Part shown: in pieces, positions 14,585 through 37,956 of the stretch
Layout of the letters: each line of letters begins with the position of its first letter
Numbering within the stretch: position 1 is the first letter of the stretch
Source: Humulus lupulus
Taxonomy: Eukaryota; Streptophyta; Magnoliopsida; Rosales; Cannabaceae
Assembly (NCBI RefSeq): GCF_963169125.1
Contig: NC_084796.1
Location: 83,473,888-83,537,887 of the forward strand
DNA: 64,000 nt
Direction of reading: 5' to 3'
The notes under the pieces: generated by a model
Database searches by the model: none
Told to the model about the DNA's origin: nothing
The model's input: the letters and a program-made list of their open reading frames with translations, nothing else
Program-made: the position numbers and the translations under genes

Positions 14585-14599
14585 ACTATCCCCTCCTAA
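14585..14599 (-). other. Polypurine tract of the Tekay element
   Basis: On the minus strand the bases before the 3' LTR read ttaggaggggatagt, a purine-rich plus-strand primer. It abuts the LTR directly. Confidence 0.85.
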
Positions 14600-14620
14600 T
14601 AAGAATTTCGTCCTCGAAAT

Positions 14621-17107
14621 TTACCTGAACAATTCCGGATACTGATCCCGCATAGCTGTCTCAAGCTCCCAGGTCGCCTCCTCGACCTTACTGTTTCTCC
14701 ACAGCACCTTAACTAAAGGAATTGTTTTGTTTCGCAACACCTTATCTTTTCGGTCCAAGATCTGAACTGGTCTCTCATCATAAGCCAAATCTGCCTGTAA
14801 CTCCAAATCTTCATGCCTCAAAACATGATTCACATCTGAGACATACTTCCGAAGCATAGAGACATGAAACACACCATGAACTCCAGACAACGATGGTGGC
14901 AAGGCTAACCTGTAAGCCACCTGACCAATCCTTTCCAGGATCTCGAATGGTCCAATGAATCTAGGGCTCAACTTGCCCTTCTTACCAAACCTCCTCACCC
15001 CTCGCAGAGGTGAAACTCGAAGGAAGACGTGATCACCAACCTGAAACTCCACATCCCTACGCTTAGGATCAGCGTAACTTTTCTGCCTGCTCTGAGATGT
15101 GAGCATCCTAGCTCGGATCTTCTCTATGGCCTCACTCATCCTCTGGACCATGTCCGGTCCCAAGTATCTCCTCTCACCCATCTCGTCCCAATGGATGGGC
15201 GATCTACACTTCCTTCCATACAACATTTCATAGGGAGCCACTCCAATTGTTGACTGGTAACTATTATTGTACGAGAACTCAATCAACGGAAGGTACTTAC
15301 TCCAAGAACCCTCAAAGTCAATCACACAAGCTCTGAGCATATCCTCTAGTATCTGGATCGTCCTCTCAGACTGTCTGTCAGTCTGAGGATGAAAAGCTGT
15401 ACTGAACTTCAACTGAGTTCCCAAAGCTTTCTGCAAACCTCCCCAAAACTTGGAAGTAAAAATAGGATCCCGGTCTGACACAATAGACTTAGGAACCCCA
15501 TGGAGACGTACAATCTCTTTCACGTACAACTCAGCGTACTGATCCACAGTATAAGTTGACCTCACTGGAAGGAAATTGGCTGACTTGGTATATCTATCCA
15601 CTATCACCCATATTGAGTCATGAAACCCTACTGTTCTGGGTAGACCTCCTACGAAATCCATAGTAATATCCTCCCATTTCCACTCAGGAATATCCAAAGG
15701 CTGAAGCAACCCTGCTGGTCGTTGATGCTCAGCTTTCACCTGTTGACAGGTTAGGCATCTAGCAACGTACTCTACCACATCCCTCTTCATCCCGGGCCAC
15801 CAATACAAAGTCCGTAGATCCTGATACATTTTTGTGGTACCCGGATGAAGCGAGTACGGTGTCGTATGAGACTCATCTAGTATCTCCCGTCTGATCCCCT
15901 CGTCAGCTGGAACACAAATTCGTCCCTGATACCGTAATAAACCAACCTCTGAAACAGAATAGTCCTTAGCTATTCCTGCCAAAACATCCTCTCTAACCCT
16001 CTGTAACTGAGCGTCTGTCAACTGCCCCTCTCTGATCCGCTCTAGCAGGGTCGACTGTAGAGTAATATTAGCCAATCGGCCCACAACCAATTCTATTCCC
16101 GCTCTAACCATCTCATCTGCTAACTCCCTTGAGATCTGAACAGAGCTGTACAACTGACCTGGACCTCTGCGGCTCAATGCATCAGCCACCACATTGGCTT
16201 TTCCTGGATGGTAAAGAATATCACAATCATAATCTTTCACCAGCTCCAGCCAACGTCTCTGTCTCATATTCAGGTCCCTCTGTGTAAAGAAATATTTCAA
16301 GCTCTTATGGTCAGTGTACACCTCGCACTTCTCCCCATATAGGTAATGCCGCCAAATCTTCAGTGCAAAGACCACTGCTGCCAGCTCTAGGTCATGAGTA
16401 GGATACCGCTGCTCATACTCCTTCAGCTGTCGTGATGCATAAGCTGTCACCTTCTCATTCTGCATCAGCACACAGTCTAAACCCAACCTTGACGCATCAC
16501 AGTAAACAACAAACTTCCCTTCTCCTAAAGGCAAACTCAACACTGGTGCAGTAATAAGTCGTCTCTTCAACTCCTGGAAACTACCCTCACACTTGTCTGA
16601 CCAAATAAAGTTTAAATTCTTTCTTGTCAATTCTGTCATCGGTGCTGCTATCTTTGAGAAACCCTCTACAAACCGCCTGTAGTAGCCTGCCAAACCAAGA
16701 AAACTCCGCACCTCTGAGGCGTTCCTTGGCCTCGGCCAATCCCTAACTGCCTCTATCTTAGATGGATCTACTTTAATCCCATCTGCACCTACAATGTGTC
16801 CAAGGAATGTCACTTCAGGTAACCAGAACTCGTACTTCTTAAACTTAGCATATAACTGATGCTCCCTCAACCTCTGAAGAACCAAACGAAGATGAAACTC
16901 GTGCTCTGTCTCTGAACTGGAGTACATTAGGATGTCATCGATGAAGACTATAACAAACTGATCTAGAAAATCCTTGAATACTCTGTTCATTAAGTCCATA
17001 AAAGCTGCTGGGGCATTGGTCAAACCAAAAGACATGACCAAGAACTCATAGTGCCCGTACCGCGTCCGAAAGGCCGTCTTAGGTATGTCCTCATCCTTGA
17101 TCCTCAG
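14621..17107 (-). pseudogene. pol: Tekay pol, part 2: RT, RNase H, integrase, chromodomain
   Basis: This is the same frame as the gag-side piece, continuing directly after the amber codon. The first ATG is at 17041; residue numbers count from it. RT has the FIDD catalytic box at 33-36. RNase H shows VVYCDAS (D182), HDLELAA (E219) and YTDHKSLK (D244). Integrase shows the His/Cys zinc module (H392 or H399, C429, C432) and D462, D523, E559 for the DDE triad; the block usually read TDGQSE is TDRQSE here. The last 55 residues ([21 protein letters not shown] onward) form the chromo-like tail that may steer insertion to chromatin marks. No further stop or frameshift is present. Confidence 0.93.
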
Positions 17108-19156
17108 CTAGTGATAACCAGATCGAAGATCAATCTTTGAGAACACCGTCTTACCCTGCAGCTGATCGAACAAGTCATCAATCCTTGGTAGGGGATACTT
17201 ATTCTTAATAGTTAACTTATTCAGTTCCCGATAGTCAATACACATTCTCAGGGTCCCATCCTTCTTCTTAACAAATAAAACTGGAGCACCCCATGGCGAA
17301 TAGCTAGGTCTGATGAACCCTATATCCAGAAGTTCCTGCAGTTGTATCACTAACTCTTTCAGTTCCGCTGGTGCCATCCTGTATGGTGCCCTCGACACTG
17401 GCTCTGTCCCCGGTGCCAACTCAATAACAAACTCAATCTCCCTATGCGGCGGCAACCCAGGCAAATCCTCAGGGAACACATCCAAGAACTCACAAACCAG
17501 TCTGGTCTCCTCCGGTCCAACTAATGAAACTTTGGTGGTATCCACCACACTAGCCAAGAAGCCTATACATCCACCCTGTAACAAATCTCTGGCTCTCAAC
17601 GCAGATATCCTGGGTACGCGGGGTCCTCGCACCGCTCCCACAAAAACAAAGGGATCCTCACCCTCTGGCTCAAAAGTCACCATTTTCTTTCTACAATTAA
17701 TAGTAGCTCCATATCGAACCAGCCAATCCATGCCTAAGATCATGTCAAAATCCTCCATACTTAACTCAATCAAGTCTACCGACAACTCTCTGCCATCAAC
17801 TAACACTGGCAATGCCCTAACCCATCTCCTAGACACCACCAGCTCTCCCGTAGGCAATATAGTCCCAAACCCTGAGGTACTAATCTCACTAGGTCTACAC
17901 AATCTATCAATCACCCTATCAGAAACAAATGAATGCGTAGCACCAGAATCAATCAAAACAGTAAAGGAAGTGCCAGCACTAGAATGCTGACCTGTCACTA
18001 CCGAGGGGCTAGCCTCGGCCTCTGCCTGCGTCAAAGTAAACACTCGAGCTGGAGTCAAGCTGTCCACTTTTCCTGCCTCGCCCTTCTTCACTGTTGGGCA
18101 ATCTTTTCTGAGGTGCCCCACCACCCCGCATACATAACAGGCCTTAGCCTGACACTCGCCCAAATGGCGTCTCTTGCACCTCGGGCATTCTGGGTAAGTC
18201 CTCCACGAATTTCCGCCTCCCCGTCGGCCACCCTGAACACCCCGACCTCCTCTATCATACCTAGGAGCAATTGGGGCTTCAGGAGTCTTTCTCTTCAAAT
18301 CACTAACACCTCCACCTCTACTAGAACCAGAATACGGAGGCACCGGTCTACGGCCCTCCCTTCTTGCTGCACTATCCCTCCAAATCCTATTCTCTGCTTC
18401 CTCAGCAGTCAGAGCCCTTTCCACAGCCTGGGCATAGGTAGTCACCCCAGGAACTGTAGTAATCCTTACATCCCGGGCTATCATGACATTTAGCCCTCTA
18501 ACAAATCTGTCTAACCTGGTCGCATCGGTAGGAACAAGATCCGGTGCAAACTTTGCAAGTCTATCAAATTTTAAGGCATACTCTGTAACAGTCAAACTGC
18601 CCTGAACAAGGCCCACAAACTCATTCACCTTCGTTGCCCTGATAGCAATGTTATAATACTTCTGATTAAACAAATCTTTAAACTCTTCCCAAGTCATTGT
18701 GGCAACATTTCTGGTCTGCGATACCACCTCCCACCAGATTAGGGCATCCTCTCTCAACATATAAGTGGCGCAGGCCACCCTATCATATCCTTCTACCTTC
18801 ATAAAATCAAGTATAGTGGTAATCAAGGTCATCCACTGCTCAGCTTTTAGTGGATCTGGTCCACCCTCAAAGATCGGGGGCTGCTGTTTCCTGAACCGCT
18901 CATACAACGGTTCCATTTTATTACCAACATCAACAGGCTGTACCACAGGTACCAGCACCGGTGGCCCAGCTGGGGCAACACTCCCAGATGGAGCCTGCTG
19001 CAGTATTCTGATCAACTCATCTTGGCTCTGAAGCCTAGCTTGCATTTCTGCCATTAACTGTTGCCAGTTCTCAGGGACTGGCGGAGAGGTTGGGCCCTGA
19101 TCATCCTCTCTAGCCCCAGACCTGCCGGATTGTCGTGTTGATTTCCTTGAACGCAT
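17108..19156 (-). pseudogene. gag-pol: Tekay gag-protease-RT, part 1 (ends at amber codon in RT)
   Basis: A 682-residue frame. The gag part has a basic N-terminus, the conserved block around [11 protein letters not shown] and [13 protein letters not shown] (about 107-168), an RGG-rich linker and a CCHC zinc knuckle at C340, C343, H348, C353. Aspartic protease follows with the active-site motif [11 protein letters not shown] (D403) and ILGMDWL. RT begins with [19 protein letters not shown] and ends at DLRSGYH, where TAG (17108-17110) replaces the codon that is CAG (Gln) in related elements. Downstream codons stay in frame. The change is C to T at a CAG site, as expected for deamination of a methylated CHG cytosine. 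Gag and protease could still be made. Confidence 0.93.
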
Positions 19157-19528
19157 ATCTATTCAAGTCAATCTGCAAACAACGACTCGGAAATTAGGCT
19201 AAGATGACAGGGTGATAATCTCTCCATAATCCACCACCGAAAGTCCAATCATTCACAAGCAAACACGTATAGCAATTCATTCAAATATTCATCCACATAC
19301 ACAGCAATGCTAATAAGCATGCCTCAATAACATCATGCAATAGTCAAGGGCCAGGCCCTATCAGAATCTCATGCTCCCTATTCATCAGACAGATATCCAC
19401 ATTCATATCTCACTCAAATCATTTAAACACATAATCATACATATACAGTTACCAAACCCTGAGTTGAGCTTGTCTCCCGCAGCGAATGTACATACCCAGC
19501 CAGTCTTCAGGACCCATAAACCTAGGAC

Positions 19529-19540
19529 GCTCTGATACCA
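19529..19540 (-). other. Primer-binding site of the Tekay element (tRNA-iMet)
   Basis: On the minus strand TGGTATCAGAGC starts three bases after the 5' LTR. It is a 12-base match to the complement of the initiator tRNA-Met 3' end. Confidence 0.92.
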
Positions 19541-19543
19541 AGT

Positions 19544-21026
19544 TGTAACGCCCTGGTTAGCCAAGACCGTTACTCTGTGTGTTTATAATGTGCCAAACTT
19601 GCTAATCAAGTATTTAAAGTAAAAGCGTGTTACTCAAATAGTAGAGGAACTAAGGTTAAAAGAGTTTTGGTCTCAAAAGATGCATTTTCATTACTAAACA
19701 TTGGTTATGTACAAGGGATCCCAAAAATGACAGTTTAAAAGTCATTTACAAAAGTTACAAAGTCTATATACATCAACAGCCATACTAAGGCAAAATGAGT
19801 GGTTAGGTAATCTCCGTCCTGACACACTCCTCGACCGTGGTGATCGAACGGCTGGCTATGTACATTTCACCTCGGAGCTCTCCACCTCAGGCCTGGTCCA
19901 GCTTGCCCTTACCCTTACCTGCACCACGAAGCACCCGTGAGCCAAGGCCCAGCAAGAACATATATCAATAATAGAGCATGCACATTTAGCTGTCAAGTCA
20001 ATCTCACTTATAACATCTCATAAACTCAAGCATATCAATAGTCAAGTATTTCATATACAGAGCATTTCAACTCATATAACACAATGCACAGATGATAACC
20101 AGGGCTAGCGCTCACAAGCTGCTCCCTCTGTTATCCTTTCGTTTCTGGCTCCTAGTGGCCAATTCGCGTCCCATGCGCTAAATTCATGAACGGTACTCTT
20201 AGACCGCTTACACGTGTCCCTTGGCATAATACCAACGATGACACAAAACAATTCTCGGGAGCACTTAGTCCCATCACAATCATACATTCGGGTGCAGTGT
20301 TCTTACCTTTCAATTCGCTGGTTTCCGATATCACGTAGCCACAAGCACGGTCCGCTATCCCGAGCTTCTCCAAAGTCCTTAAGTGATAGGTTCAACCTCC
20401 AGCTCTTGACCTTCTTCCCCCTTGGTTTCCAAATTCTCTGAGTTTTCTTGGCCTAAACTTGGTTGATAACTTCAGACATCCCTTGATTCTCCTTCCAAGA
20501 GTCTAGATTTCTGCTTCTCCTTTCTATCTCCTCTTTGTTCTAATTCTAGGTTTCCACCATTCAGCATAAACCCCTCTCCAAAATATTATACGTATATGTT
20601 ATTCCCTCAGCTCAAACTCATCTATTTACTACCAAATTACCATTTTAACCCTCCATTAATATCACTTACTAACTAGACCTCAAGGGCTTATTTGTCCTTT
20701 CCCTAACTTTGCAATTCTACCACTTTCCCAAAGAAACCTGTTACTTTCTATAGTTACTAATGGTTACACAGGTTACCAAGTCACCAGTTACCTTTATCTA
20801 GTTTCCTAGGACCGCCTTGGCACGTGCACCACGTTTGTATCACAGCACCCACACAGTACAATTCACATATCATAATTATCACATAATATAATTCACATAG
20901 TCATATAACATGCTTAAAATCATAATCATACATCTTAATCATAATAATCACACATAATTCCCATCATGCCCCCCCGGCATACTAATCAAGGCCCTTAAGC
21001 CTTATTAGTGATTTTGGGTCGTTACA
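19544..21026 (-). repeat. 5' LTR of the Tekay element
   Basis: Exactly the same length (1483 bp) as the left LTR, with a constant offset of 6442 bp and three substitutions noticed by eye. It drives transcription leftward into gag. GTAAG follows at 21027-21031. Confidence 0.95.
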
Positions 21027-21031
21027 GTAAG
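21027..21031. repeat. Target-site duplication, right copy (GTAAG)
   Basis: Exact copy of the five bases at 13097-13101. Confidence 0.95.
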
Positions 21032-21901
21032 TTTCTTCTTGAATGGTTTGGTATTCTTTTCATCACTTTTTCTTTAGATTCTCACCATTTTAGTGTTTGT
21101 TTATAGGAGTTTCTAATCCCGTTCTTGTTCCCAAATATCCCTGCTTTTGGTAAGGAAAATAGGCTAGATATATGTGTTTATATGTTTATGTTATGATATG
21201 TTTTATGCTATGATATGATATATGTTATGTAATATATTTTATAGTCCTTGGGCATATGACTTGTTTAGATAACAAGCCCCAAGAATATGTTTTATAGTCC
21301 CTGTGCATATGACTTGTCTAGCTAGCAAGCCCCAAGAATTTATGGGCATATGACTTGCTTAGCTAACAAGACACAAGAAGTATGATGGCCAATGTAGTCC
21401 TATATGATATATGTTTTTTTTATATAGACATATGTTTTCTAGTATATGTTTATGATATAGTTTTATGCTTATGATTTATGTATTAGTAGATTTTCCTTGC
21501 TGGGCATTAGGCTCACTCCTTCATTTTTAGTGTGATGCAGGAAAATGATTATGGAAGGCGGAAGGATTAATGGCAGCTTGGCTTGTGTGTTGAGGATGAA
21601 TGGAATGAATGAACTGCGTGTCGATCGAGGATGATGTCATTTAGTCTTTTGATTTATGTTTCTTTTGTAATTCCGCAAATTGTATTTAAACAATTGAATT
21701 AAAGTTTATGTTTTATGTTTTATAAACAATGGGTACCCATACCATATCACATTTTATTTTATCCTTTTATGTTATTGATACAATATTTATTTTGGGGTTT
21801 TAATAAAGTTATGATTATTTCATATGTATGTTTTCTCAAAAATAGTAGCTATGTCTAGTAGTTTAATGGTCCAAGGTCTTAGAAATAGTTGGATCATTAC
21901 A

Positions 21902-22228
21902 TGGACGTGAAGATATTTTAGAATCGTTACAAAAGAGGAAATACCAGTGTGGGAGAAATTTCATTTTGAGTAACAAGTAGGGATGTTACTACTCAAGGAA
22001 GCATGAAAGTAAGATCAATATGGAAGTGGTGTAAGAATTTATCCAAAGGATTCAAGGTAACAATATTTGTTAGCGATGAGGATGGAATGATTTATGGAAT
22101 AATGTTCGCTACTTTTGCAAGAAAGAAAATCGCAATGGATTGATCTCAGAATTGTAAACATAGGAATATTATTTAAGCTGTACGGACTACAGATTTGGAT
22201 AGGATCTATAATAGATTTAAGACTATCT
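21902..22228. other. Unassigned stretch between solo LTR and CACTA element
   Basis: No frame over 60 codons and no motif recognised. It is continuous with 28918-29165 if the CACTA element is removed. It may be decayed gypsy internal sequence, but I cannot show that. Confidence 0.35.
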
Positions 22229-22620
22229 CACTACAAGAAAAAACAGTATTCATAACACTTAAAAACTGCTAACCGGGACTATTGATAACACTTCTGAAAA
22301 TGATAACATAGCCCCTGTTATTAAAAGTCCAGTGTTTTCTATAACAGTATTTGAATGTTATGTTCTGTGTTATCTTAAACTATTCAATAACACATTTTTA
22401 GGTGCTATAATATTCAAATAATAACATATAGATTGAGTTTTTGGTTATAAATTTGAAGCTTAATCTTATACTTTTTTCATAATACTTTTCAACTGTTACA
22501 TTTGATTATTTTGATAACATTTTTAGTTTGTTATATTATATAAACCATAACGATTTTTTACGCTTATAATATGTTTTTAAATCATAACATATAGTAATAA
22601 AATTTTAAATTTTATTTTGA
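22229..22620. repeat. CACTA left terminus and subterminal repeat region
   Basis: The terminal CACTACAAGAAAAAACAG is followed by about a dozen ATAAC(A/G) motifs in both orientations (for example cataacactt, gataacactt, gataacatag, ctgttatt). Such arrays are where En/Spm-type transposases bind in the family. Confidence 0.75.
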
Positions 22621-23067
22621 TAAGTATACTCATATGGTTTTTTTTTAATTAAAAGATTTTCATTATTGTATTTTGATAAAAAAAAATTCAAAATTAATCA
22701 TAAAATGTAATTCTCAATAGATTGATAAACCATAAGTATTACATTAAACAATAACTAATTCAAACCATGAATGTGTCTACTTCATGAGATCTTAGTTCTA
22801 ACTTAAGTTTGAAAGCATAACATAATAAAGTTTTATAATCGTGAACAATTTTTACTTCAAAAATGAAAATAGAAACATTACAAGATACACAAAAGTAAAC
22901 GAAACTTGCTCCATCCTTCAATTCATCATCCTTTGTGCACTTGTCTTTGTTGTGAGTCCATTTGCTTAGCTACAAAAAAATTTAAATAATTAATGCTTCA
23001 ACTTAAAGTTATAGTAAACTAAAAGAGTACATAAAAAAAGTTAATTACCTAATTATAACTTTATCAG

Positions 23068-23397
23068 CTGGAAAAGCTTAGCCAAACCATTCAAGAACTC
23101 GAGGAGGTTGTTCTAGCTAGAGGAGTTGCAGTCAATGCTATTCACGATTACAAATGATAGATAGAAGAATTGAATGTGAGTCTAGATAAATTTACTTGTT
23201 GTCTTTTTGACAATTATGGTATGCTAACCTCATTTGAGTAAAAAATTCAGGAGGAAAAAAGGACTCTAGAGCGAGAACTTGCAAGCGCAAAAGTTTCAGC
23301 AAACCGCATAGCAACTGTGGTGGCTAATGAGTGGAAGGACGAAAATGATAAAGTTATACCATTTAAGCAGTGGCTGGAAGAAAGAAGGCTTATGTAG
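23068..23397 (+). pseudogene. MAP70-like: MAP70 (microtubule-associated protein 70) fragment, two exons
   Basis: Exon a (23068-23175, 36 codons) starts after the acceptor ttatcag and reads LEKLSQTIQELEEVVLARG. It ends at donor gtgagt. Exon b (23251-23397, 49 codons) follows ttcag, reads ELASAKVSANRIATVVANEW and PFKQWLEERRL, and ends at donor gtatag. This is the coiled-coil core of the plant-specific MAP70 family, which binds cortical microtubules. Three premature stops are present: two adjacent ones in exon a (TGA, TAG) and a TAG as the last codon of exon b. The flanking exons of the gene are absent. It lies head-to-tail against the COG7 piece, on the other strand, inside the CACTA element. 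Confidence 0.88.
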
Positions 23398-24507
23398 GTA
23401 TAGTTTGATTACCTCAGAAATTTCCTACAAATCCTACATTTGACACAATGTTACAACTCAGTTATGCCTTTCGACTGCTTTTCATCTACTTTTCTTTCTA
23501 GTTGTACGAGTCTCCTTACAAATGAAAGAAGAAACTTATTATTACGTATATGTTAGCATTTATTTTCACTTATTCTGTGAATGTTCAATTCTACAATATG
23601 TAGGCAGTAAAAAAACAACACAAACCAGTAACAAAATACACCAAAGCCAATAGAAAAATAAATATTCTAAGCCACTAAACCAGTAGCAAAATGCACCAAA
23701 GATGTTTTCAAAAAATACCTTCTTGCTTTCAAAAAGAAAAAAATTCCATATGCACTAACAAAATGCAAAAGTAATGCCATCACAAAAAAAAAAAAACCAA
23801 GCTCTTCTCTTCGTTGTGTAATAATGACTAAATGATATTCACATTCAGTCATAATACAAACAATATATAGCAACCACCAAAAAACTTTGTAAAATTTTGT
23901 AACACTAAATGTGCATAAGAATGGATCAAGGAAAAGAACAAACCTCCAAATTGTCAAGAGTGACATGCCCAACCTTGATCATCCCATTTTCCATCATCAT
24001 TCAATTGGTAGACCTTAACATTGAAATTTATGTTAAAAAACTAAGGTTAATTAGTTATATATATATAGCTAAAAATAAAACTTCACTTGAGAATGAGACA
24101 CGCATGGAGAGGAAGATAGAGAAAAAAAGAGAACCACATCTGGGCCCTTGTTCTTGCTTGTCGCCTGAGGGCTGAGGCAGAGAGAAAGAAAAAGGGAGGG
24201 TGTTGTGGTGTGCTTCAAGGGATCAAAAACTGCACTAAATTGCTTGGTGGGAGGCCTAAGCTCATAACGCAACAACTAAAAAAGCTTCAGTCTTGCAAGT
24301 TAAATGGCCAGATATTCACCATAACGTCGAGTAACATGAGAGTATAACACATTCAGATCAAAAACATCTATCATATAAATAAATATACTATACTAAGAGG
24401 AGCAAGATCAATAGAGACTAAATAGATTAGATATACAGAACAGAAAACAATAAAAATACTAATGAATAATTCAGATTCAAAAATTTCCATACTAATGAAT
24501 AATTCAG
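23398..24507. other. Spacer between captured gene pieces
   Basis: AT-rich, with a poly-A run near 23785. No exon of MAP70 or COG7 recognised. It may hold intron sequence from either gene or original CACTA sequence. Confidence 0.4.
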
Positions 24508-27500
24508 ATATACAAGTTCATTTACTGTGTCAGCAAATGCTGTGACTCTTTGAGATGCCAAAGGAAGTGCATGAAACCTGGGATCTTTAGACTGCATAAC
24601 AAAAGGTAAAACTTGTGAGCATCATCTCCTTACCCCACAAGAAGTTCCAGCAAGGAATGCGACAAAATCTTTTTTCAGTCATTAAAAACTAATATGCCTC
24701 TGAAATTGAAATATTGGTATCATGTACCTGACTTAAAAGGTTAAAGAGCTTCCAGGACTTCTTAGGAATGTCAACAAGCCGCACTGCTGCCACATCCAAG
24801 GCAGCCCTTCCACCCACAGATGCTTCTCCATTACTGTCATCACCAACATGTGATGGGCTTTGGTCCACACTTGAACCAAATACTGACAGAGACAAAGTCG
24901 TGCTTAATCTAGCAAGAGTAGCTCTCAAGGAAGCTTCAAAAATAGAGGACCTGCTAGTTAAACAGTCTGAAACTGTGAGGATGTGCAAAGCCCCTTGAAC
25001 AATGGACCATTCCTCATCATTTGAAATCAATTCAACTTTTCGTGTAGTGTTGCCATCTCTCTTGTCTCATCCCATCTCTTTCTTTGAACCAACACCATCA
25101 TGGTCTACTCCACAGACCACTCTTAATGATCTTAGTATCTCTTCTAAAGCAGAGATATATTGTAACATTATGTCATCAAGAGCAAGAATTAGTTCATCTA
25201 CCTTAGAACCACCAGTAAAGTTGATACACCTTTCTACAGCTGCCTCAAGAAGTTCAATGATATGGGGAATAGATTCCTCCATTCTGCGAACTGTTTCACT
25301 GAGTTCAATCCCCTGGGCACCCACACCACGAGTAACAGCTCCCCTGAGATCCACCCCAGCAATTTCAGAAGAAAGGATGGCCCGCTCCATCTGTCCATAC
25401 CTTATATACATATTCAATCATTAATCAAAAAATGAACATAGCATTTACAGAATCTAGTATATAACGAAGAAAAAATAACAGAAAAAAGTTTTCAAAAAAA
25501 AAATTAGATATTTTAGAAGAATGTGGAAGTGCAAAAAAGTTTATGATTGCTTACCTTTGTTTAAATGATTCAAAGGGAGAGTACACTGCCTTCAATGTAT
25601 CCATTAGAACTCGAAGATCAAAATCTGAAAAGGAATGCTGAATATTTCTAGCAAAAGTCTGTGTCACGTTGTGTAACTCAATCAATGCCTCTAAATGTTT
25701 CCTAATCTTAATTCCCTTTGGCATGTCACCAGACATAATATCTAATAAACCTGAATAAAAAGAAACACATTGATAGGATAATTTATAAATTGCCAAAAAT
25801 AAAATTGCATGACTTAAAGCTTGTCCAATTGAAAGATATCATATAATATTAAATGCCTGCAAAATTTAAAAGCACCATAAAAACAAGTCCGTACAAACCT
25901 TTTCCCAAAGCTCTTGTTTTAGGAACAACTTCTCCAATTGAAAGGTTGATACGTGAAATAAAGCTTGCTCCAATAGTTTCCATTGTTTGGATCAGTAGCT
26001 TTGGTACAAGAGTTTTATAATCCTCAGGAGAAGCAACCATACACCTGTAGATGACAGTTTAAGCTCAGTGCTTACATTCAGTGATAGCTTCTTTGAATCA
26101 ACAAGATGTTCCTCGGTGCTTAAAAAAATATATAGTCAGAAGAATTTACCACTTCCACTCTTGCTCAAGATAAAGAATCAACTCATCATAGAAGCTTGGC
26201 AACCAACTTGCGAATGAAATTGTCGAAGAGCTTGATTGAAACTCATGGCTTGACAGCCTTTCAGCTTCAGTCTTCTCATTTGCAAGCTTAATAGCACGGT
26301 GTTTTAAATCGAAATCTTCCCAGAGCTGTTTTATGGGCTTTAGGTGAACTTTTGTGTAATGTAGCTCCAGTGATTTGAATCTTCCAATTCGAATGAGAAT
26401 ACCCCGCAAATTTTGAGCAATGTCTATCTGTAGGATGATAATAGATGTAAGTTATTGAAGTTGCGTATGGTATGTACTAAAAGGAATTAATAGGAGATAA
26501 ATTGAACAGAAAGCAAGCCATAGGCAAAACAAGTGCTGTAAGAAATTTGGTGACCTTCCGGCTGGATAATGCATCTGTTAAACGTGGCTGCACCATTGCA
26601 TCTAGCCTATCCTCTAGGACCACGAGTTGCTTTCTCACATTAGCAAATTCAGCAACCTAAAATGAGCAAAACAAAAAATAAAATATCAAGTAAAAATCAT
26701 CAAAAATTATAAAATCAAATGTAGAGTATAATGTTAAAACAATTTATAGAAAAATATTACCTCCCCAACAGCAGACAAGCAATGACTCATGTTGGCTAAG
26801 GTTTCTGCAGCCCTTGGAAGATCACCACTGGCAAAAACATCTTCCACAGTTGAACTTAATTGAGTTAACCCAGCAGCATCCAGTTGATCCATCAATGAGT
26901 AAATCAAATGCAACATCAACATTTTCCAATACTACACTGATTATAACTTCTATGATCAAATACCCACCTGCAATGTCTCATAAGCAGCTTCCATTCTCTG
27001 CTTAACAGTATCAACTTTGGCCAGAGCAGCTATAGATTCAGCTGATGATCCTTCAGCCTGCATATTAAAACCAATTGTTTGAAGAGAAGAGTATTGTTAT
27101 ACATATGTATCAAGTGAGAAGCTAAAATCTCAAACCATATAAACAAAACTAAGCCCGCAACAACTGTCTACCCATGTAAATTATATAAACCAATTACATC
27201 AGTAAATGTACTGAAACGTGGGTATATCAATGTGAACCTGCTAATATAATTTATAGTAATGCTCTACAACATATTGCAAAGCAGAATATATATATTTAGG
27301 CAACTATTTCAGTTATGTGTGCGTATATCCATGCATATAACTCAACGTAATTCCATTGTTCACATTAGCAATAATCTATTCATAATATCTACATTTATTT
27401 TTAAGCAGAAAAAGCAAAAACGAGACGTTTTAACCAAAAGGGTGCCCTGCCTTCTTGTAATTTATTCCAAAAATCTATTAACTCATTGCCAAGAGATTGA

Positions 27501-28122
27501 GCTCAAAAGGTAGCACAAACTACACAATCGTAGTTCTCAAATATCAAAAAAAAATAACTAATATTGAAAAATTTGCATTAGAAAATCTTCCTCAAATTTC
27601 CCTCGTTCACTTAGGCAAATTGAAAAAACTCAGTTGAGCAATTGAGAAATATATTAAGCTTCAAATTTGGCATTAAGGGATAGCATAATTAAAAGATTAT
27701 ACTTTCTTAACTTATAAAATGCAGTAAATCTGACACCGCCATCCTAATATTGTCCAAATTTTCCATACTTCACGTCTTCTAGTGAATTGAACCCAAAAAT
27801 AAAGTTAAAAAACCAAATTCGAATTGCAGAAAAAAGAAGAAACATAGCAGAAACAGACATAACATGTAGGTACCTTCTTGAGCTTCTGAAGGATTCCGGC
27901 GATGGCAGAGCGTAGTGAGACCGCATCGTTGTGGAGTCGGATCACATCGCGGGTGGCCCGTGGCACGCGAAGTAGGGCAGCAGAGCTCTGCTCCTCTAGC
28001 GAGGCAGAGATCTCTTCAGATACGATTTGGAGCCTCATCTCCAGATCGACGAGATGGTTATCGACTGAGTCCTCCGAGTGCCGAGTCTGACACGCCGAGT
28101 TCACCCATTTCTTGGGATCGAA
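24508..28122 (-). pseudogene. COG7-like: COG7 (conserved oligomeric Golgi complex subunit 7) fragment, nine exons
   Basis: COG7 is a subunit of the COG tether for retrograde Golgi vesicles. Exons in order of transcription: 27874-28122, 26968-27057, 26761-26880, 26555-26656, 26150-26427, 25899-26044, 25555-25750, 24728-25400, 24508-24591. Together they give about 640 codons out of roughly 830 in plant COG7, with GT donors and matching phases. Recognisable blocks are KKWVNSACQ at the start, LTQLSSTVEDVFASGDLPRA, KPIKQLWEDFD, FARNIQH, AVYSPFESFKQR, RGVGAQGIELSETVRRMEES and DPRFHALPLASQRV at the end. About a dozen N-terminal residues with the start codon and about 180 C-terminal residues are missing. 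There is an in-frame TGA at 25067-25069, and the acceptor before exon 3 reads TG instead of AG (26881-26882). It cannot encode full COG7. Confidence 0.93.
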
Positions 28123-28344
28123 ACACAAAACGTAAAAATCACACAAAATGCAAAACGCAGACACACAAAACGCAAAAACAAAGCAAACCCAGATCACAAA
28201 AATCATCGAAAAACTTGAGAGAAAAGAAGAATTGACGAGAGAAAGAGTCGAGAGAAGGAACATACTAATGTGGAGGCAGAGAGAGATGGTAGTAGCTTCG
28301 CTCAAGAGCTTATTACAAAGAAGGCACGTCATGCATGCCTCCAT
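27874..28344 (-). CDS. Chimeric frame: hydrophobic leader fused to COG7 exon 1
   Basis: From the ATG at 28342-28344 an open frame runs without a stop through about 74 non-COG7 residues, rich in Leu, Phe, Cys and Val (MFLLSTLSLVNSS, then IFVIWVCFVFAFCVSAFC), straight into the COG7 frame at FDPKKWVN and on to the exon 1 donor. The junction lies at about 28122, the capture breakpoint. The leader looks like a transmembrane or signal-like segment, but it derives from T-rich sequence and may be open by chance. Expression is unknown. Confidence 0.3.
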
Positions 28345-28388
28345 CCCTCCTCGCTTTAACAATCTGACCCGCCATATCTGTGTGCGAC

Positions 28389-28416
28389 TCCCTCTCTCGC
28401 TCTCTCTCTCTCTCTA
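28389..28416. repeat. CT microsatellite
   Basis: A run of (ct)n, with one gc step, lies upstream of the COG7 fragment on its strand as (ga)n. A second ga-rich tract lies at about 28631-28677. Such tracts are common in plant 5' untranslated regions and promoters. Confidence 0.7.
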
Positions 28417-28885
28417 GGCTGAGAAATTGGTGTCTATTGAAATGGCATTCGACTCAAATAAATTGAATATATATATTTACATTGATTATATGATATTAAT
28501 TGAAATCTAAATGCTAAAAAAACAAAAACAAAATACCTCACAGAAAAACAGAGGTCCAGCGGGAGAGATATCAGAGGGAAAGAATGACGGGGAAGCTGAC
28601 ACAGTCATGGTGCGTTTCAGCGACTCGCATGAGAGAGAGAGGGCTGAGGAAACTAAGTGAGAGAGAGAGGAAGAGGAGGCGACACTGATTTAGGGAGCTG
28701 GTTTGGGTAGTTTAGGGTTTAGGGATTCAATGAGAGCAGATGAGGGATTAGACAAAAAGTTTCACATGGCGCCTTATTTCTTTTTCATTTGGCGCCTAAC
28801 ACATAGACGACTTGTTAAAAAATAATTAATTCTCCTTTTTTTTTCACTTACACATTAATAACGCTTCTTCATTTATGTTATATTT

Positions 28886-28917
28886 TAATGTAACATATAG
28901 TCAAAATTGTTGTAGTG
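28886..28917. repeat. CACTA right terminus
   Basis: The plus strand ends ...caaaattgttgtagtg at 28917, followed by TCT. In reverse complement it reads CACTACAACAATTTTGAC and then ctatatgttacatt, with a TGTTAC subterminal motif. Confidence 0.8.
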
Positions 28918-29165
28918 TCTTCTTGGATTGTAGAAAATTTTAGAATTCAATGACTATAAATATAAATGATGGCTTAGACCCTTGTTGCCGGACAAAAAGA
29001 TAAGTGAAGTCTAGACCTGCATTCTAAGAAACACGATATGGATTACCATATTATAGAGTATATATGAGTTTTATGCTACTGTAGTAGATAACAAGTTAGA
29101 AATTTTGGACAATTTCTTAAGCGGTGGGGTAAAGAAGGAAGTTACCCACTTGTTCGACAAGACAC
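28918..29165. other. Unassigned stretch right of the CACTA element
   Basis: Continues the sequence of 21902-22228 once the CACTA element is removed. No frame or motif recognised. Confidence 0.3.
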
Positions 29166-31410
29166 ATCAACTCACAAGTATTAGAAAAAGACCATTTTAA
29201 GGAAAAGCTTAGTGGGGCCTTAATTAAACATGCAACTTGGGCCCAATAGTGTTAAAATAAAATAATGTGTCTTTATGCAATATTAATAAATGAAATAAAG
29301 TTGTAAGTCCCACTGACGTAATTGAAATAAAAAATCATAACATAGGTTCTTTTATTCTTGGCGCTCAACTTGATCATTATTCATTCATAGGACACCCGAC
29401 GCCATACATAATCAGACGTCGGAACTCCTCACATCACTCTGCGTGCCAAGGAGAAACCCTATAGATTAGCAGAAAGGGGGAAAGGTAAGGGGTGATCTAA
29501 AAGCCCAGTAAGGAAATACAACAAATGAAACAATATCAAAGAAATCGCAAGAAGAACATATTCATATCATAACTTGGGGAAAAACACATCATCTTCATAC
29601 TCATAAATCATAATCATAATCGTAATCATAGTCATACATCACAATCAACACATAATTATACTCTTTGTGATCATGACACCCCTATTTTTCATGTCACATC
29701 TTCAGGTAACCAGCAAAAAGCATTAACTTGTAAGACCTCCTCTATGAGTTAAATAGGATCTCAAGTCATTGAATAACCTCGGCACGTCTGCCTTTGAGTT
29801 ACATCATATCCTTAGTAAGTCATTTTTTGTGTCGTGTTCATAATGCTAGCAACCTTTTTCATTTCATTCATCATACAATCACATGTGTCACAGTTTAAAG
29901 AAAAACATAGAATTTACACTTCATAACACTTGACTTATCATAACATCTCAAAACATAAATTTACAATTTTCATAACATATGCTTTCCATAGCACTTTATT
30001 TCTTACAACATAACAAATCATACCTTTAATAGCATAATACATAGAAAATTCTAACTAACTTCCATACCTCAAGTCCAAGCAAAAGTAAAGTGCAAATACG
30101 TCACAACGAGCCTATAATCACAATCAAACGTTCATCTTTAAAATCACATAAGAATACACATGCCCAAGATAAATACCCCACGTGTGCATGGGCCATGTTT
30201 CTACCCACACTCATTTAACACAGCATGCATTTTTTATGTTTGCCGCAAAACAACTCACATGGAATCATTGCTTCAACTAAAATTATATCATGCTCTTATA
30301 TACATCGTGGGAGTAAATAACAAAAGGAGAAAAAAATAACATAGAAAAAATTCCTATCGCTTGGCCGAAAAGTCAAGACCATATAACAGAAATATACTCT
30401 TCAACATATATCCCTTCAAAATCATGGATTCATTTACAAGGACAAGAGTATCAATAACACATGTCCATAATACAAGACAACTATTGCAAATCAACATGTT
30501 TTTTCCATGAAGACCACTCAAAACAAAAGAACACAACAACAACATCAAGGAAAATATAAAGGCACTATTATCTCAATTACCTCCTAGGGTTTTTCAAAGC
30601 CACACAAAGAAAGAAAACTAAACAAAAACCAAGAAACAAAAATACTTAGCAACAAGAAAATGAAAACAAAAATTGAGTAGAGGATTAAATCACTAAGAAG
30701 AACAAGAACACAAACGTAGTTGGAATCACCTTCTTCCCTTTCTCCTTCTGTCTCTATGCCTCATAAGCTCTCTCCTCTCTATCTCTCTCTCTCTATGGAA
30801 CGACAGCCATAACCAAATGAGACTTCAAGATGTCCTTGTTTCCCTTCTTAACCTAGCCGAGCCCCCTTGATCCACTTGCCCAAAATTAAGCTCAATCATT
30901 CCCTTAATTCCCTCTCCCCAATTCAAGTGATGGAGCACATTAAGGGAAACCAAATCCTTTCCTTCACTGACCATCTATCACTCACTCACTTTTTATACTT
31001 GGCCACAAATGGCCTTTTCACACTACATTGCCAAACTTTTCAACCTTCCAAAGATAGGTACAAATCCACTAATAACTTACCCCTTTATATTATTTTTATT
31101 TTTCCATTTTATAATAATAATAAATAAATAAAAAGAAAATACAATATGCAAAGAAAACTAATGGATGCTCACCATGCAACCATTCACATGCACACATACA
31201 TGTGATCAAATGCATCTCTACTAACCATGCACCTTGGTGCACACAACCAAAACTCACGAACTTACAAATTAAAATAATTAACAAATTTAAATTTACATGA
31301 TTTCTACCAAGCAATTCAAACAATTAAAAAAAAAATTCTAACAAATAACAATTAATAATAAAATAAAGCACACAGTTTAATAAAGTAAAATAAAAATTTG
31401 GTGCGCTACA
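29166..31410 (-). repeat. 3' LTR of element A
   Basis: It ends gtgcgctaca at 31410, i.e. the LTR begins TGTAGCGCAC on the minus strand, directly next to a polypurine-like tract. The match with the right copy starts at about 29166. The LTR box (gtgatctaaaagcccagtaa) is at 29491-29510. Confidence 0.7.
30991..30997 (-). promoter_or_regulatory. Putative TATA box in LTR A
   Basis: The minus strand reads agtaTAAAAAgtgagtgag inside the LTR. A CT/GA-rich tract follows downstream at about 30753-30797. Confidence 0.4.
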
Positions 31411-33957
31411 ATATACCCTCCTTAAAAGGAATTTTTTCCTGAAATTCTTTCTTACCAAATAACTCAGGGTGTCTTTTTCTCATGTCTTCCTCTACCTCCC
31501 ATGTTGCCATCCTCCCCTTAATATTCTTCCACTAGACCTTAACTAATGGAATCCTTTTGGATCTCAATTCCTCGATTACCTTTTCGATGATACGCTCTGG
31601 CTACTCATTGTCACTCAGGTCATGCTTCAGATGTAATGGCTCATAACTCTAAAAATGAGTGGGATTTGACACATACTTATGCAACATCTAGATATGAAAG
31701 ACGTTATGCGTTTCAGCTAGTGCTGGGGTCAATTTCCCTTTCTTCCCAAAATGCATAGCACCTTTCATTGTCGAGACTCTCAAGAACACAAACTCGCCAA
31801 CTGAAAACTCGATGTCCCTTCTCTTAAGGTCGCATAGATTTCTTTCCTACTTTGACTGGTAAGCATCCTTTGGCTAATATTCTCAATTGCCTTACTGGCT
31901 TCTCGAACCACCTCGGGGCCTAAAATCTGTTTCTCCCCAACCTCATCCCAGTGCAAGGGAGACCTACATTTTGCGTCCATATAGCATCTCATTGGGAGCC
32001 ATCCCAATAGTTGGCTGATAGCTATTGTTATAGGAGAACTCCATCAGGGGTAGACATCGACCCTAGGATCTGAATAGTCCTCTCAAATTTCCCATCGATA
32101 TGTGGATGAAAAGTGGTACTGAACTTCAACTTTTTACCCATAGCTTTCTGCAATCCCTTCCAAAAGTTCTATGAGAACACTGACCCTCGATCAGAAATAA
32201 TCGACTTTGGAACCCAATGAAGTCTCACTATCTCGCTAACATACAACTCCACATACTGATCCGCCAAGTAGGTTGTCTTAACTTGTAGAAAATGGGCAGA
32301 AGCAGAATTATGCTAATTTGTGGTCCTAGTTAATCCTACCACAAAATCCTTTGCCATGTCTTCCCATTTCCATTTCCATACCAAAAAATGCTATTTTGTG
32401 GTCCTAAGTATCCCTGTCGGCCTTCGGTGTTCTACTTTAACTTACTGACATGTCAAACACCTGGCAACAAACTCAACAACATCATTCTTCATTCCAGGCC
32501 ACCAATACAACAGTTTGTGGTCTTGGTACATCTTTGTTGGCCCTTGATGTAAGAAATAAAGTGTTTTACGCAGCTTTTTCATAATACTTTCCTTAATATC
32601 ATCATTGTTTGGCACATAGATCCTTTCCTTATATCATAGCAATCCATCATTGGACATAGGGCTCCTGTTACTAGCTCAATGTCGACGTTAATAATCTCTT
32701 CTTGTAGAGGTATCTTAATTGTGCTAAGAGTTGAGACACTTCCATGTCCTTGCCTACTCATTGCATAAGTCACCACGTTGGCCTTGCCTTGGTGGTATTG
32801 AATCTCGCAATTATTGTCCTTCACTAACTCCAACCATCGTGGTTGTCTCATATTCAGCTTTTTCTGAGTGAAGAAGTACTTCAGACTTTTGTGATCAGTG
32901 TAAATTTCACACTTATCTTGATAAAGGTGATGTCACCATATTTTCAGTGCGAACACAACTGCTGCTAACTCAAGATCATGGTTGGGATATCTCTACTCAT
33001 AGTCCTAGAGTTGCCTTGAGGCATTAGCCACCACCTTCCCATTCTACATCAACACGCAACCTAAACGGCTCTTAGATGTGTCACAATACACCATGAACTT
33101 CCCCCTCAGTGGGAACACAAAGGATAGGTATAGAGATCAACTTATCCTTCATAGTTTTAAATCCTTCTTCGCACTTCTTAATCCACATGACCTTTTGGTG
33201 TTTGCGGGTTAAGTTTGTCAAGGGTGTGGCAACCTTAGAAAAACCCTCAAAAAAATTCTGCTAATAGCCCGATAACCCTAAGAAGCTTCAAACCTCTAAG
33301 GCATACTAGGGTTGGGGCCAGTCTCTAATGGCCTCGATCTTTGCTGGATCCACTGCTATTCAATTCTTGGACATTATATGCCCTAAGAACGCCACTTGTT
33401 CTAACAAAAATTCACACTTAGAGAATCAGAATATAGTTGATGCTCTTGTAGTCTGTTGAGAGTCAACCTCAGGTGCTCCTCATGCTCTTCCTTAGTCTTT
33501 GAATAGATAAGGATGTCGTCTATAAACACCACTACAAGTAGTCCTCAAACACTTTGTTAATCATGTCCATGAACGCTTCTGGGGCATTAGTGAGTCCAAA
33601 AAACATCACTAGTAACTCATAATGTCAGTAGCGAGTTCTAAAAGTTATTTTAGGAATGTCTCATTCCTTCACTTTTAGCTGATGTTACTCAGATCGCAGA
33701 TCAATGTTTGAAAACACGACTGCCCCTTACAGTTGATCAAAGATGTCATCTGTCCTGGGCAAATGATATTTGTTCTTAATCGAGACCTTATTGAGTTCTC
33801 GGTAATCAATGCACATTCTAATACTTCCATCCTTCTTTTTCACAAACATAAGTGGTACCCCCCATGGTGAATTATTAGGTTGTATGAACCACTTGTCCAA
33901 CAATTCCTGTAGCTGGGTCTTGAGTTCCTTCAAGTCTATAGGTGCCATTGAGCAGGG
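31411..33957 (-). pseudogene. pol: Element A pol: RT, RNase H, integrase (broken)
   Basis: Reading leftward, RT shows [21 protein letters not shown] at about 33770-33850 and the usual order of downstream motifs. The RNase H end reads [19 protein letters not shown] (about 32800-32850). Integrase C-terminal sequence includes CRSPLHWDEVGEKQILGPEV (about 31900-31970) and a chromo-side tail up to a purine-rich tract (about 31411-31425) by the LTR. Many stops and frameshifts separate these pieces. The sequence at the right edge, P-C-S-M-A-P, is continued on the other side of element C. Confidence 0.85.
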
Positions 33958-35370
33958 TAATAACTCCATTTTAGTGTCATTTTAGAATATGTTATTGTGG
34001 TAATCTTGATTCTTTATGTTTTTTTTGTGCAAGATTACACTTTTGTTTGTCTTTGTTGTAGGTTGCTACTTTGAATCGTTAATTAAATGCTAAAAGAAGA
34101 GGAAATGGTGGGAAATGAAGCTTTTGGTTGTTGTTTGACTCAAATTGGTGCTAAGGATGAATAATAATAAGTTTTGATGAAGGAAGGATGTCAAAAGGTT
34201 AAAATTTGAAAAAAAAAATGGAATTATAGTTGCGACATGGGCTTAAGGGCCGCAAATCTAGTCAAGTCAAAAGCTACAAAGTTTCTAAAGGGAATTAGAG
34301 CCTTGACTTTCTCTTATAAGTCACGACGCTTGTGGAAGTCAGAGGCTAAATTAGGAGGGCATCAAAGACACTGACCACGACTTGATAGTGCATGAGTCGA
34401 GGCACCTGAAGACACATGCAGACTCGGAGGGGCTTTAAAATTGACACGGGCCACGACCTATGGAAGGCCAAGTCGCGGCCCGCCTATGAAAAACAATGTA
34501 TTCGTGATTTTTTTAGTATAAGTTCAGATTTTAGGGTTTAATTAGAGATTAGGTCAAATTTTAATTACGTTTTTGGAGACTGATTTTGATTCTCGAACTT
34601 GTTTTTCTACACTTTTATATTTTTTTGTTTTTTCTTCAAGTTTTTGAATCTTATGTTTCTAAATTATTATTGTATTGATTTAGTCTTGTATGATATGAAC
34701 TAAAAATCTTATTCTAGTATTTAATGTAGTCACTTGGATTTCTATTTAATTTAATTATAATATTCTATTGATTTTTCTTCTCTATTATAATCTATATAAT
34801 GTTTTCTTAGTGCTAGTAAATACATGATCAATATTTGCTTAATTTATGATTTTGATTCAAAATTCGAAAGATGAGAATTGAATATGCTATCGTTATATAG
34901 ACATAGGTTACATATTGGACGAAAGTATGTGTATGGCTTGTGTAGTAATTAGGTTTCTATGCTTTATGCCTGCTATATGTTTAAGTTTATCACAGAGATG
35001 TAGAAAACCTACATATAGGATGAGATCTTATATCTTGAAAAAGAATAGGAGTCGATTTATTTTAACATGCTATTAGAATAAGAAGGAAGAAATTTAGAAC
35101 TGATCAATAAGATTAGTAGAATGAAAAGTTGATGAAGTTAATACCCTAGGTCTTTTTATTATTGATTTTCATCCTTCAATTAGTAGTTTTGTTCACAGTT
35201 ATTTAAAAAATTTATAAATAGAATTTTTCATCGAAATTTTGTTTCTCGAATTGAAATTAAAGAACAATTATTGGTAATTGGGTAATAGTCTTTGTAGGAA
35301 CAATACTATATTTACTATCTATATTACTTGAATCGATTGCGTGCACTTGCGTATCATATTGTCACGATCA
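33958..35370 (+). repeat. 5' LTR of element C
   Basis: Starts TAATAACTCCATTTTAGTG, ends tgtcacgatca. It is collinear over its whole length with the right LTR, including the shared gaagttaataccctaggtct and acttgaatcgattgcgtgc. Confidence 0.88.
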
Positions 35371-35376
35371 TGTTTT

Positions 35377-35394
35377 TGGTGCTATTGTGGGGGA
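35377..35394 (+). other. Primer-binding site of element C (tRNA-Asp-like, decayed)
   Basis: TGGTGCTATTGTGGGGGA resembles the TGGCGCCGTTG-type site used by Athila/Tat elements, with a few changes. It lies six bases from the LTR end. Confidence 0.65.
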
Positions 35395-35579
35395 CTTAAT
35401 TTCCAATGTCAAAACCAATTATTGTTTGTTCTAATTTGGTTTTTATATTTTATACTCATTTGGATCAAGGTTGTATTTTGTTTTAGGAAATATTTGTATA
35501 TCCGTGGAAGTAGACAAAAGGAGCTCATACCGGTAGATCTTGAAATTTAAAAAACCGAAAGATAAAGAAAAGGTTAGAT

Positions 35580-36673
35580 TTTTCCATGGGTACAAATTAA
35601 GGGAATGCAGTAAATCATGCTGCTAACGATGTTGAAGGGGCAGTGGCTGCTAAGGTCGTTGCTGATCAAGGGGCTAGAAGTATAAGAGATTATGTACCCC
35701 CAACTATTACAGGAGTGCATACGTACATCAGACCTCCAACAATAGCTGCGAATAATTTTGAGATTAAGCCAGCGATTCAACAAATTGTCCAATATACTTT
35801 TCAGTTTGGAGGTTTGCCTACAGAGGACCCTAACATACACATAGCTAATTTCTTAGAACTTTGTTCGACCTTTAAGATGAATGGGGTGAGCGATGACACA
35901 ATAAGGTTGAAGCTATTTCCATTTTCACTATGGGACCGAGGAAAGAGTTGGTTGATTTCCCTACATGGGAGGATCTCGCTCAAAAGTTCCTTGCCATATT
36001 CTTTCCTCCATCCAAGGCTGCATGGTTGAGAGGGGATATTAATAATTTCTGTCAGATGGAGAGAGAGTCATTATATGATGCATGGGAAAGATATAAAGAA
36101 TTGTTAAGGAAATGTCCACATCATGGTATAGATAAGTGGATGCTAGTCCATAATTTTCACATTGGGTTAGGCGGTACTACTCGCACTATCGTAGATGCAA
36201 CAACAGGAGGGGCATTTATGAGCAAGAGTGCCAACGAATCTTATGATCTATTAGAAGAGATGGCCATGAACAATTACGAGTTTCCTACTGAGAGGGAAAA
36301 TACACAGAAGGTGGTTGGGATGCTTGAATTAGATGCCATGTTAATGTTGATAGCTCAAGTGGCATCCTTGATGAAACAACTACAACAGAATAACTTCACA
36401 GTTCAACCCACGCAATTACAAAGTGTGTGTGTAATTTGTGGAATATTGCATCCACATAATCAGTGTCATGTAATGGATTTAAATAATGTGCCTATGGAAC
36501 AAGTTCAAGCCATAGGAAATAGCCAAGGTTGTCCAATAACCCATATCCCATGTTCTACAACCAAGGGTGGAAGAATCACCCTAACTTGTCTTGGAAAAAT
36601 AATCAATGAGCACAACTCCCATACCCACAAAATCATCTGCAATATCCACCCCATCAATCAACATATGGGATAA
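35580..36673 (+). pseudogene. gag: Element C gag (frameshifted)
   Basis: The first frame reads [18 protein letters not shown] and [20 protein letters not shown], the Athila-type gag core. Near 35950 the frame shifts by two and continues as [40 protein letters not shown], up to a Cys-His motif CVICGILHPHNQC that stands in for a zinc knuckle. No clear start codon remains: an early ATG at 35586 meets a stop after four codons. Capsid-type function in the family; inactive here. Confidence 0.85.
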
Positions 36674-36735
36674 ATCCTCGATGGTATTATAATCCTTTCC
36701 AAGCAATGTAAAAACACCCACCACTTCATCCTTAA

Positions 36736-37956
36736 GTGATTCCATTACAAGCAAAGTTAGACACGTTAAACCAATTGAAGACTGAAACAAGGTCTTCGAT
36801 AAGGAGTTTGGAGACACAAATTGGTCAACTAGAAAATTTAATGTCTAATCGGGCTCTAGGGAATTTACCAAGATCCACTAAGGTAAACCCAAAAGAACAA
36901 TACAATACAATATCTTTGAGGAGAGGTAAGAAGTTGGAAGATCCAAGTAAGATGCCTATTCAGTTACCAAAAGTGGTTGATTAGAAAAAGGGTGAAATTG
37001 AAGAAGAGGTTAATGAAAACTTTGAGCGAAAAAGAGCTAGAAATAAGTGTAGAGAATCACATTAAAATCCCATATCCTTAGAGGCTTCAAAAGAAGACAC
37101 TAGACAAGCAAATTTTTAAGTTTTTAGATGTCTTTTGGAAGCTTCATATCAACATTCATTTTTCTGAAGTACTTGAACAAATGTCAAGTTATGTTAAATT
37201 TACGAAGGAGATTCTAGCAAAGAAAATGAAAGTAGATGATTATGAGACAGCGGCACTTACTGAGGAGTGTAGTGCGATACTTCAAAAGAAACTACCTTCC
37301 AAGTTTAAAGATTCTGGTCATTTCAATATTCCATGCTCTATAGGGGGTTCAGTTGAAACCAATGCTTTATGTGATTTATGGGGGGCTAGTGTGAATCTAA
37401 TGCCTTTATCAATCTTTCAAAAGTTGAATTTATGAGAAGCTCAACCTACTACCATATCTTTGAAGATGGCAGATAGATCAGTCAATCATCCTCATGGAGT
37501 GATTGAGGATGTATTGGTGAAGGTGGATAAATTCATCTTCCCTATGGACTTTATCATTCTTGATATGGAGGAACATGAAAATATTCCCATTATTCTTGGA
37601 ATGCCATTCATGGCTACTGGTAAAGCTTTAATAAATGTACAAATGGTGAGTTAAAACTGCGAGTGCAAAATGAGGAGGTAATATTTAACGTTTTTGCAGC
37701 AACGAAAATTCCAACTTGTTATAGAGTTGAAATGGTAAAACAAGGAGAGAACAAGTTGGAAGTCTCCAAGCAAATATCTGTGGTTAAAACTAGAATGCGA
37801 AAAGGGCGTCATCGTGTAAAATGGTTCTTCAGTGAAAGGATTCGAATGTTACATGAGCGGGGTAAAGTTCCACCAATTTTTAATCACCAGAAACGAGTGC
37901 CAACTCAAGATACTATAGCTCTCAAGGATGTGAGCGGGGGACTTGATCCAACTTGA
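36736..37956 (+). pseudogene. Element C gag C-terminus and aspartic protease
   Basis: Three pieces in two frames. ETQIGQLENLMSNRALGNLP with VNPKEQYNTISLRRGK is the linker before protease in Athila-type polyproteins. The protease core at about 37181-37435 reads FNIPCSIGG and ALCDLWGASVNLMPLSIF. The family has D-L-G-A-S, so a Trp codon (TGG, within 37367-37390) splits the active-site motif. IILGMPFMATGKALI (to 37654) is the flap-side block. The last frame ends RVPTQDTIALKDV-GG. After that nothing of pol follows. Confidence 0.82.

Follow-up and report, generated by a model that had tools for sequence, protein, structure and literature searches.

We begin by considering a stretch of 6689 bp of hop (Humulus lupulus) DNA, which lies in the 64-kb sequence analysed here (the window). 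The stretch is bounded by the ends of a CACTA transposon and holds pieces of genes that have nothing to do with transposition. Its outer features are:

22229..28917, no strand assigned: non-autonomous CACTA element, 6689 bp, with CACTACAA ends
22226..22228, no strand assigned: left target-site duplication, TCT
28918..28920, no strand assigned: right target-site duplication, TCT
22229..22241, plus strand: left terminal sequence, CACTACAAGAAAA
28910..28917, minus strand: right terminal sequence, read on that strand as CACTACAACAATTTT
22229..22628, no strand assigned: left subterminal region with 12 ATAACA/TGTTAT motifs, identified by comparison with shuffled sequence

The element starts at 22229 with CACTACAAGAAAA and ends at 28917 with TTGTAGTG. 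The initial annotation described matching CACTA termini, and this is correct for bases 1 to 8 and again for bases 10 and 11, but there is a mismatch at base 9 and the two ends diverge beyond base 11. The CACTACAA ends form a terminal inverted repeat of the CACTA kind, a short one with 8 bp and two of the next three. The 3-bp TCT duplication that had been reported is present on either side, and the 5-base flanks are unequal. The next question is "how much do such ends tell us?" The bare 5-mer CACTA gives 24 pairs in the window with equal 3-bp flanks at a spacing of 0.5 to 20 kb, so the 5-mer together with a target-site duplication is by itself weak evidence and it is the longer CACTACAA end that matters. 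The window contains five CACTACAA sites on the plus strand and two on the minus strand, and 22229/28917 is the sole pair among them with equal 3-bp flanks over the same range of spacing.

Subterminal ATAACA arrays had been proposed for both ends. The left one is clear: 22229-22628 holds 12 ATAACA/TGTTAT motifs, where 2000 dinucleotide shuffles give 1.07 on average and never more than 5 (about 11-fold). At the right end a single such motif, at 28876, falls within the final 200 bp, and the region 28700-28917 holds four copies of the shorter 5-mer TAACA/TGTTA, for which the window mean is 1.5 per 400 bp. Outside 23068-23397 and 24508-28122 there are 48 open frames of at least 28 amino acids, and none of the 26 that were compared (every one of at least 40 amino acids) matches a transposase family. 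We read the element as non-autonomous because of this result, which bears out the earlier description of a body without transposase. Within the element no sequence is conspicuous as the relic of a second CACTA end; the closest internal counterpart of the 13-bp left end has one mismatch and is found at 25049, inside COG7 exon 8.

The largest part of the cargo comes from the gene for COG7. Its exons, and a short repeat at its 3' breakpoint, are:

27874..28122, minus strand: COG7 exon 1, truncated at its 5' side, so that the start codon and residues 1-12 of the parent are absent
26968..27057, minus strand: COG7 exon 2
26761..26880, minus strand: COG7 exon 3, splice acceptor lost
26555..26656, minus strand: COG7 exon 4
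26150..26427, minus strand: COG7 exon 5
25899..26044, minus strand: COG7 exon 6
25555..25750, minus strand: COG7 exon 7
24728..25400, minus strand: COG7 exon 8, with one in-frame stop
24508..24591, minus strand: COG7 exon 9, incomplete, with the breakpoint lying within it
24456..24509, no strand assigned: 21-bp exact direct repeat (24456-24476 and 24489-24509), a filler-like junction that abuts the COG7 3' breakpoint

These nine exons run down the minus strand from 28122 to 24508 and comprise 646 codons (Pfam COG7, E 5e-193). They correspond to residues 13-659 of the 834-residue hop parent (P0001), with residue 357 missing. This amounts to about 77% of the protein-coding part, so both the nine exons with introns and the "about three quarters" of the gene given earlier are confirmed. 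The exon borders were checked against P0001. All eight donors (exons 1-8) are GT, and seven of the eight acceptors (exons 2-9) are AG, the exception being exon 3; the splice-site order that had been called intact is so for every donor but not for this lost acceptor. At the edges of the piece there is no AG before the first base and no GT after the last, which indicates that its limits are not splice sites. Because the introns are kept, the piece is a DNA-level copy, as had been proposed, and a processed (RNA-based) copy is excluded. No match for the 21-bp exact repeat at the 3' breakpoint arises in 100 shuffles, and the repeat looks like the filler DNA of break repair.

Among the best 120 of 450 protein matches, from which the identities are drawn, the piece shares 96% of its residues with hop COG7 (P0001), aligned from end to end, and 92% with two Cannabis proteins (P0002 and P0003). 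P0001 and P0002 disagree at 25 sites, and the residue of the copy is that of hop in 23 cases, that of Cannabis in one and different from both in the remaining one, which argues that the copy branched off after the hop-hemp split. The copy equals its hop parent at 619 of 646 aligned residues, and the 27 differences comprise 25 derived on the copy, one derived on the parent and one (the stop) that is ambiguous. Such an imbalance is what one expects when a gene under constraint gives rise to a copy that is free of it. Methylated DNA is expected to show G-to-A and C-to-T changes, and 13 of the 25 copy-side changes must be of these kinds if they are single-base changes.

When the 26 copy-side changes (stop included) are taken as neutral, they give about 0.018 per replacement site. 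Rates of 6-7e-9 per site and year would put the capture at about 2.5-3 million years, and a rate of 1.3e-8 at 1.4 million years; this age is rough, since the rates are assumed and the computation uses protein differences, not the parental DNA. For comparison, the hop genome paper used a rate of 6.1e-9 and dates the divergence of hop and hemp to 16-23 million years ago (PMC9930403). Set against that date, the capture looks recent and inside the hop lineage.

Two other genes are represented in the element:

23068..23175, plus strand: captured MAP70 exon A, with two in-frame stops
23251..23397, plus strand: captured MAP70 exon B, which ends in a stop codon and retains its donor site
28266..28375, minus strand: exon 1 of a DRIP2-type E3 ligase, from ATG to splice donor, frameshifted, assigned by its match to P0121
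28376..28860, minus strand: presumed 5' UTR/promoter region of the DRIP2-type gene, placed by its position, right limit approximate

The two MAP70 exons, with their intron, are where the earlier description put them. They have AG/GT borders and non-coding DNA around them, and the Pfam MAP70 profile matches with E 4e-41 over 83 of the 84 residues given; the borders were set by eye, with this profile as their check. The same description counted two captured host genes, and here a third donor has to be added. Directly upstream of the COG7 piece, and in the same orientation, lies a short segment that ends in a GT donor and whose best match is a hop 'E3 ubiquitin protein ligase DRIP2-like' (P0121, E 2e-10, 87% identity), relative to which it is frameshifted. 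The search was scored on the piece 28266-28375 alone and gave four matches among five candidates, the others being a Cannabis RING-type protein (3e-10), a Salix E3 ubiquitin protein ligase (2e-8) and a Populus DRIP2 (4e-8). Its query splices two frames over the frameshift, with borders checked against P0121. Pfam finds no RING match in the DRIP2 readings, and the comparison of this piece with the PDB gives sub-threshold hits only, with CRP1 at the top (E 0.097) and several Polycomb RING proteins from E 0.67. By its protein match to P0121, 28266-28375 is the putative start of a RING-domain E3 ligase and the third captured gene. We do not claim a fourth gene in 23398-24507 or 28376-28860, where the Pfam matches of the open frames are below the curated cut-offs (the best being Cytochrom_B_C, E 0.0076; TMEM175, E 0.027; and an antitoxin domain, E 0.028).

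With the MAP70 stops, the COG7 stop, the lost acceptor, the missing residue and the DRIP2 frameshift, the captured gene parts look broken and decaying, and the cargo would now be without protein function.

The element had been taken to be a single copy, and this is probably wrong. Among the best 120 of 146 short proteins matching exon 8 there are four hop COG7-like proteins (P0145, P0222, P0226 and P0235), from which it follows that several COG7 fragments exist in hop. One of them, P0145 (239 aa), follows COG7 up to the very residue at which the window copy breaks off and then has the same foreign tail, with 23 of 26 residues identical. P0145 and the parent COG7 lie on different hop contigs, of 290 Mb and 183 Mb. 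Over 213 co-covered residues P0145 has 4 differences from the parent and the window copy has 13, a count that may be biased for P0145 because gene models favour intact frames; none of the differences is in common, so the two are hardly alleles. Derived residues shared with the window copy are likewise few: one of seven in P0222 (A314E), none of six in P0226, none of three in P0235 and none of three in P0145. The chimera of COG7 and foreign tail is thus probably not unique in hop, P0145 being known here as a protein. In P0235, residues 1-40 form an N-terminus unlike COG7, perhaps another insertion.

The surroundings of the element are rich in retrotransposons. A young Gypsy retrotransposon occupies 13102-21026, with 1483-bp LTRs that are 99.8% identical and a target-site duplication GTAAG. 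On the minus strand it encodes gag, protease and the start of RT (17108-19156) and then RT to integrase (14621-17041), in one frame with a single in-frame stop between the two. The flanking segments 12005-13102 and 21027-21901 jointly match parts of 49196-51171 on the opposite strand at about 75%; they are apparently an older retroelement that was split by the young Gypsy, and they end about 330 bp to the left of the CACTA element. To the right, a probable old LTR pair (29167-30190 and 45836-46865, 87.6%) spans 29167-46865 and encloses an inner pair (33960-35131 and 39635-40806, 87%), so that nested retrotransposons adjoin the CACTA element. Farther on, 49226-59518 contains a probable LTR pair (49226-50578 and 58165-59518, 94%) with broken Gypsy frames between. 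There are local tandem-like repeats with diverged copies at 6048-6485 and 10817-11189, and the 64-kb window has no Rfam match and no tRNA. A 27-base junction sequence does not occur in genome_contigs, nor the 29-base left end in viral_contigs, absences that carry no weight because plants are not expected in either collection.

We turn our attention to how this arrangement came about. Host coding DNA (COG7, MAP70, DRIP2) lies between compatible CACTA ends, and we are confident that the element is a non-autonomous hop transposon of the Pack-CACTA type, with DNA-level pieces of three genes, that was moved as a unit by a transposase from elsewhere. Two inner MAP70 exons, most of COG7 and exon 1 of the DRIP2-type gene with its presumed upstream region would have been taken up at the DNA level. 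The element would then have been mobilised in trans to its present site by transposase supplied elsewhere, a step we infer because the ends are present without a transposase match. The capture itself may have proceeded by the fusion of neighbouring insertions, by filler DNA at break repair, or by both. In the published model for such captures, neighbouring insertions fuse and move with the intervening DNA (PMC8903248; PMC13317346), and the unequal ends of the hop element, divergent after base 11, are compatible with a hybrid of two elements. That there are three donors in mixed orientations suggests more than one capture step. There are points on the other side as well: the ends are equal over 8 bp only, the right end has no clear array, no inner relic of a second end is conspicuous, this is the one element seen with these ends, P0145 has none of the window copy's differences from the parent, and the target-site duplication is only 3 bp. 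In rice and maize CACTA elements the duplication is 5 nt according to the cited part of PMC8903248; it is 3 bp for CACTA in that of a Chenopodium paper (PMC8978399).

Alternatively, the COG7 fragment and its foreign tail may have come together first, as an ordinary truncated duplicate or as the cargo of some other mobile element, and have been taken up by the CACTA element later. The direct donor would then not be the full-length COG7 locus, which alters the history of the element and not its nature. The presence of several COG7 fragments among the short hop proteins speaks for such a sequence of events, as does P0145, which has the same junction and none of the differences of the window copy; the same pattern is expected, however, if the copies parted soon after capture, and the loci of P0145, P0222, P0226 and P0235 give no evidence of another carrier. 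We regard this order of events as unlikely, yet well worth keeping in mind. Much less can be said for a segmental duplication or a pseudogene cluster that happens to lie between chance CACTA motifs. The many pairs of the bare 5-mer lend it some substance, but the 8-mer ends give a single pair, the left subterminal array is reached in none of the 2000 shuffles, hop COG7 and the DRIP2-like gene sit on contigs of 183 and 211 Mb, and the MAP70 and COG7 pieces are oppositely oriented; we consider this explanation very improbable.

The last alternative concerns the function of a Pack-CACTA cargo. As the DRIP2 exon 1 and the COG7 exons are co-oriented, the main reading already allows for transcription of the COG7 copy from the upstream region that was captured with DRIP2. 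One may go further and propose that this region drives a functional chimeric DRIP2-COG7 gene. A frame of 538 codons can be traced from an ATG within the DRIP2 piece (28344) across the intron of that piece; it enters COG7 exon 1 in phase and, with exon 3 skipped, stays open as far as the exon 8 stop. The lengths of COG7 exons 2, 3 and 4 are all divisible by three. But to use this frame the T-rich intron would have to stay unspliced, and that intron, which encodes a hydrophobic stretch, may be open by chance; the COG7 copy has an in-frame stop and a lost acceptor, and its 25 residue changes are without sign of constraint. We judge the 538-codon frame, which passes the T-rich intron, to be probably a chance one, and a functional chimera is hardly to be expected. 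RNA from the captured cargo is plausible by analogy with soybean, in which numerous chimeric transcripts incorporate, by splicing, the exons captured by Tgm-Express1 (PMC1947982). A travelling gene, in which the DRIP2 upstream region transcribes the COG7 copy and the chimeric RNA or small RNAs act in trans on full-length COG7, spread by several copies of the element at scattered genomic sites, would be a long shot.

Gene capture by CACTA elements is known in plants, as had been stated (PMC8903248; PMC1947982; PMC8978399). The suggestion that the hop element is unusual was overstated, since the cited portions of the literature already describe Pack-CACTA elements with several captured loci in Arabidopsis and maize (PMC8903248) and the five-fragment Tgm-Express1 (PMC1947982). 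Compared with what the former describes, the hop element has a very long capture from a single gene (nine exons, 646 codons, introns kept) and a 3-bp target-site duplication in place of the 5 nt of rice and maize; the origin described there is by fused tandems, whereas no inner end remnant stands out in hop. Tgm-Express1 is similar in being a CACTA element of comparable size (5.7 kb vs 6.7 kb) that holds exons and introns of several unrelated genes. It differs, as far as the cited text describes it, in its five other genes, in its site in an F3H intron rather than a retrotransposon-rich region, and in its demonstrated chimeric transcripts, the hop element being known from DNA alone. The Chenopodium CACTA elements (PMC8978399) share CACTA ends, subterminal repeats (clear in hop at the left end), a 3-bp target-site duplication and captured pieces of host genes with the hop element; in contrast, those described in the cited text retain transposase-associated domains, and the sole captured piece with a length stated there is 80 bp.

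Our literature searches found no work linking CACTA with COG7 and none on transduplication in Humulus. Judged by titles and opening abstract lines, the Humulus lupulus literature on CACTA and transposable elements contains no gene capture, and Humulus is not mentioned in the best 8 of 21 items on plant gene capture (Pack-TYPE, Pack-MULE, Helitron). The hop element belongs to a known kind, that of Pack-CACTA and Tgm-Express, of which it is a large, well-preserved, long and young example with three donors.

The element is a clear hop case of a known route of exon shuffling in plant genomes, with an unusually long gene piece that is still 96% like its parent. Thanks to its kept introns, the 21-bp breakpoint repeat and the sister junction of P0145, both the order and the mechanism of capture can be tested directly in the hop assembly. 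The finding also suggests that some 'COG7-like' gene models of hop may be transposon-borne or duplicated fragments.
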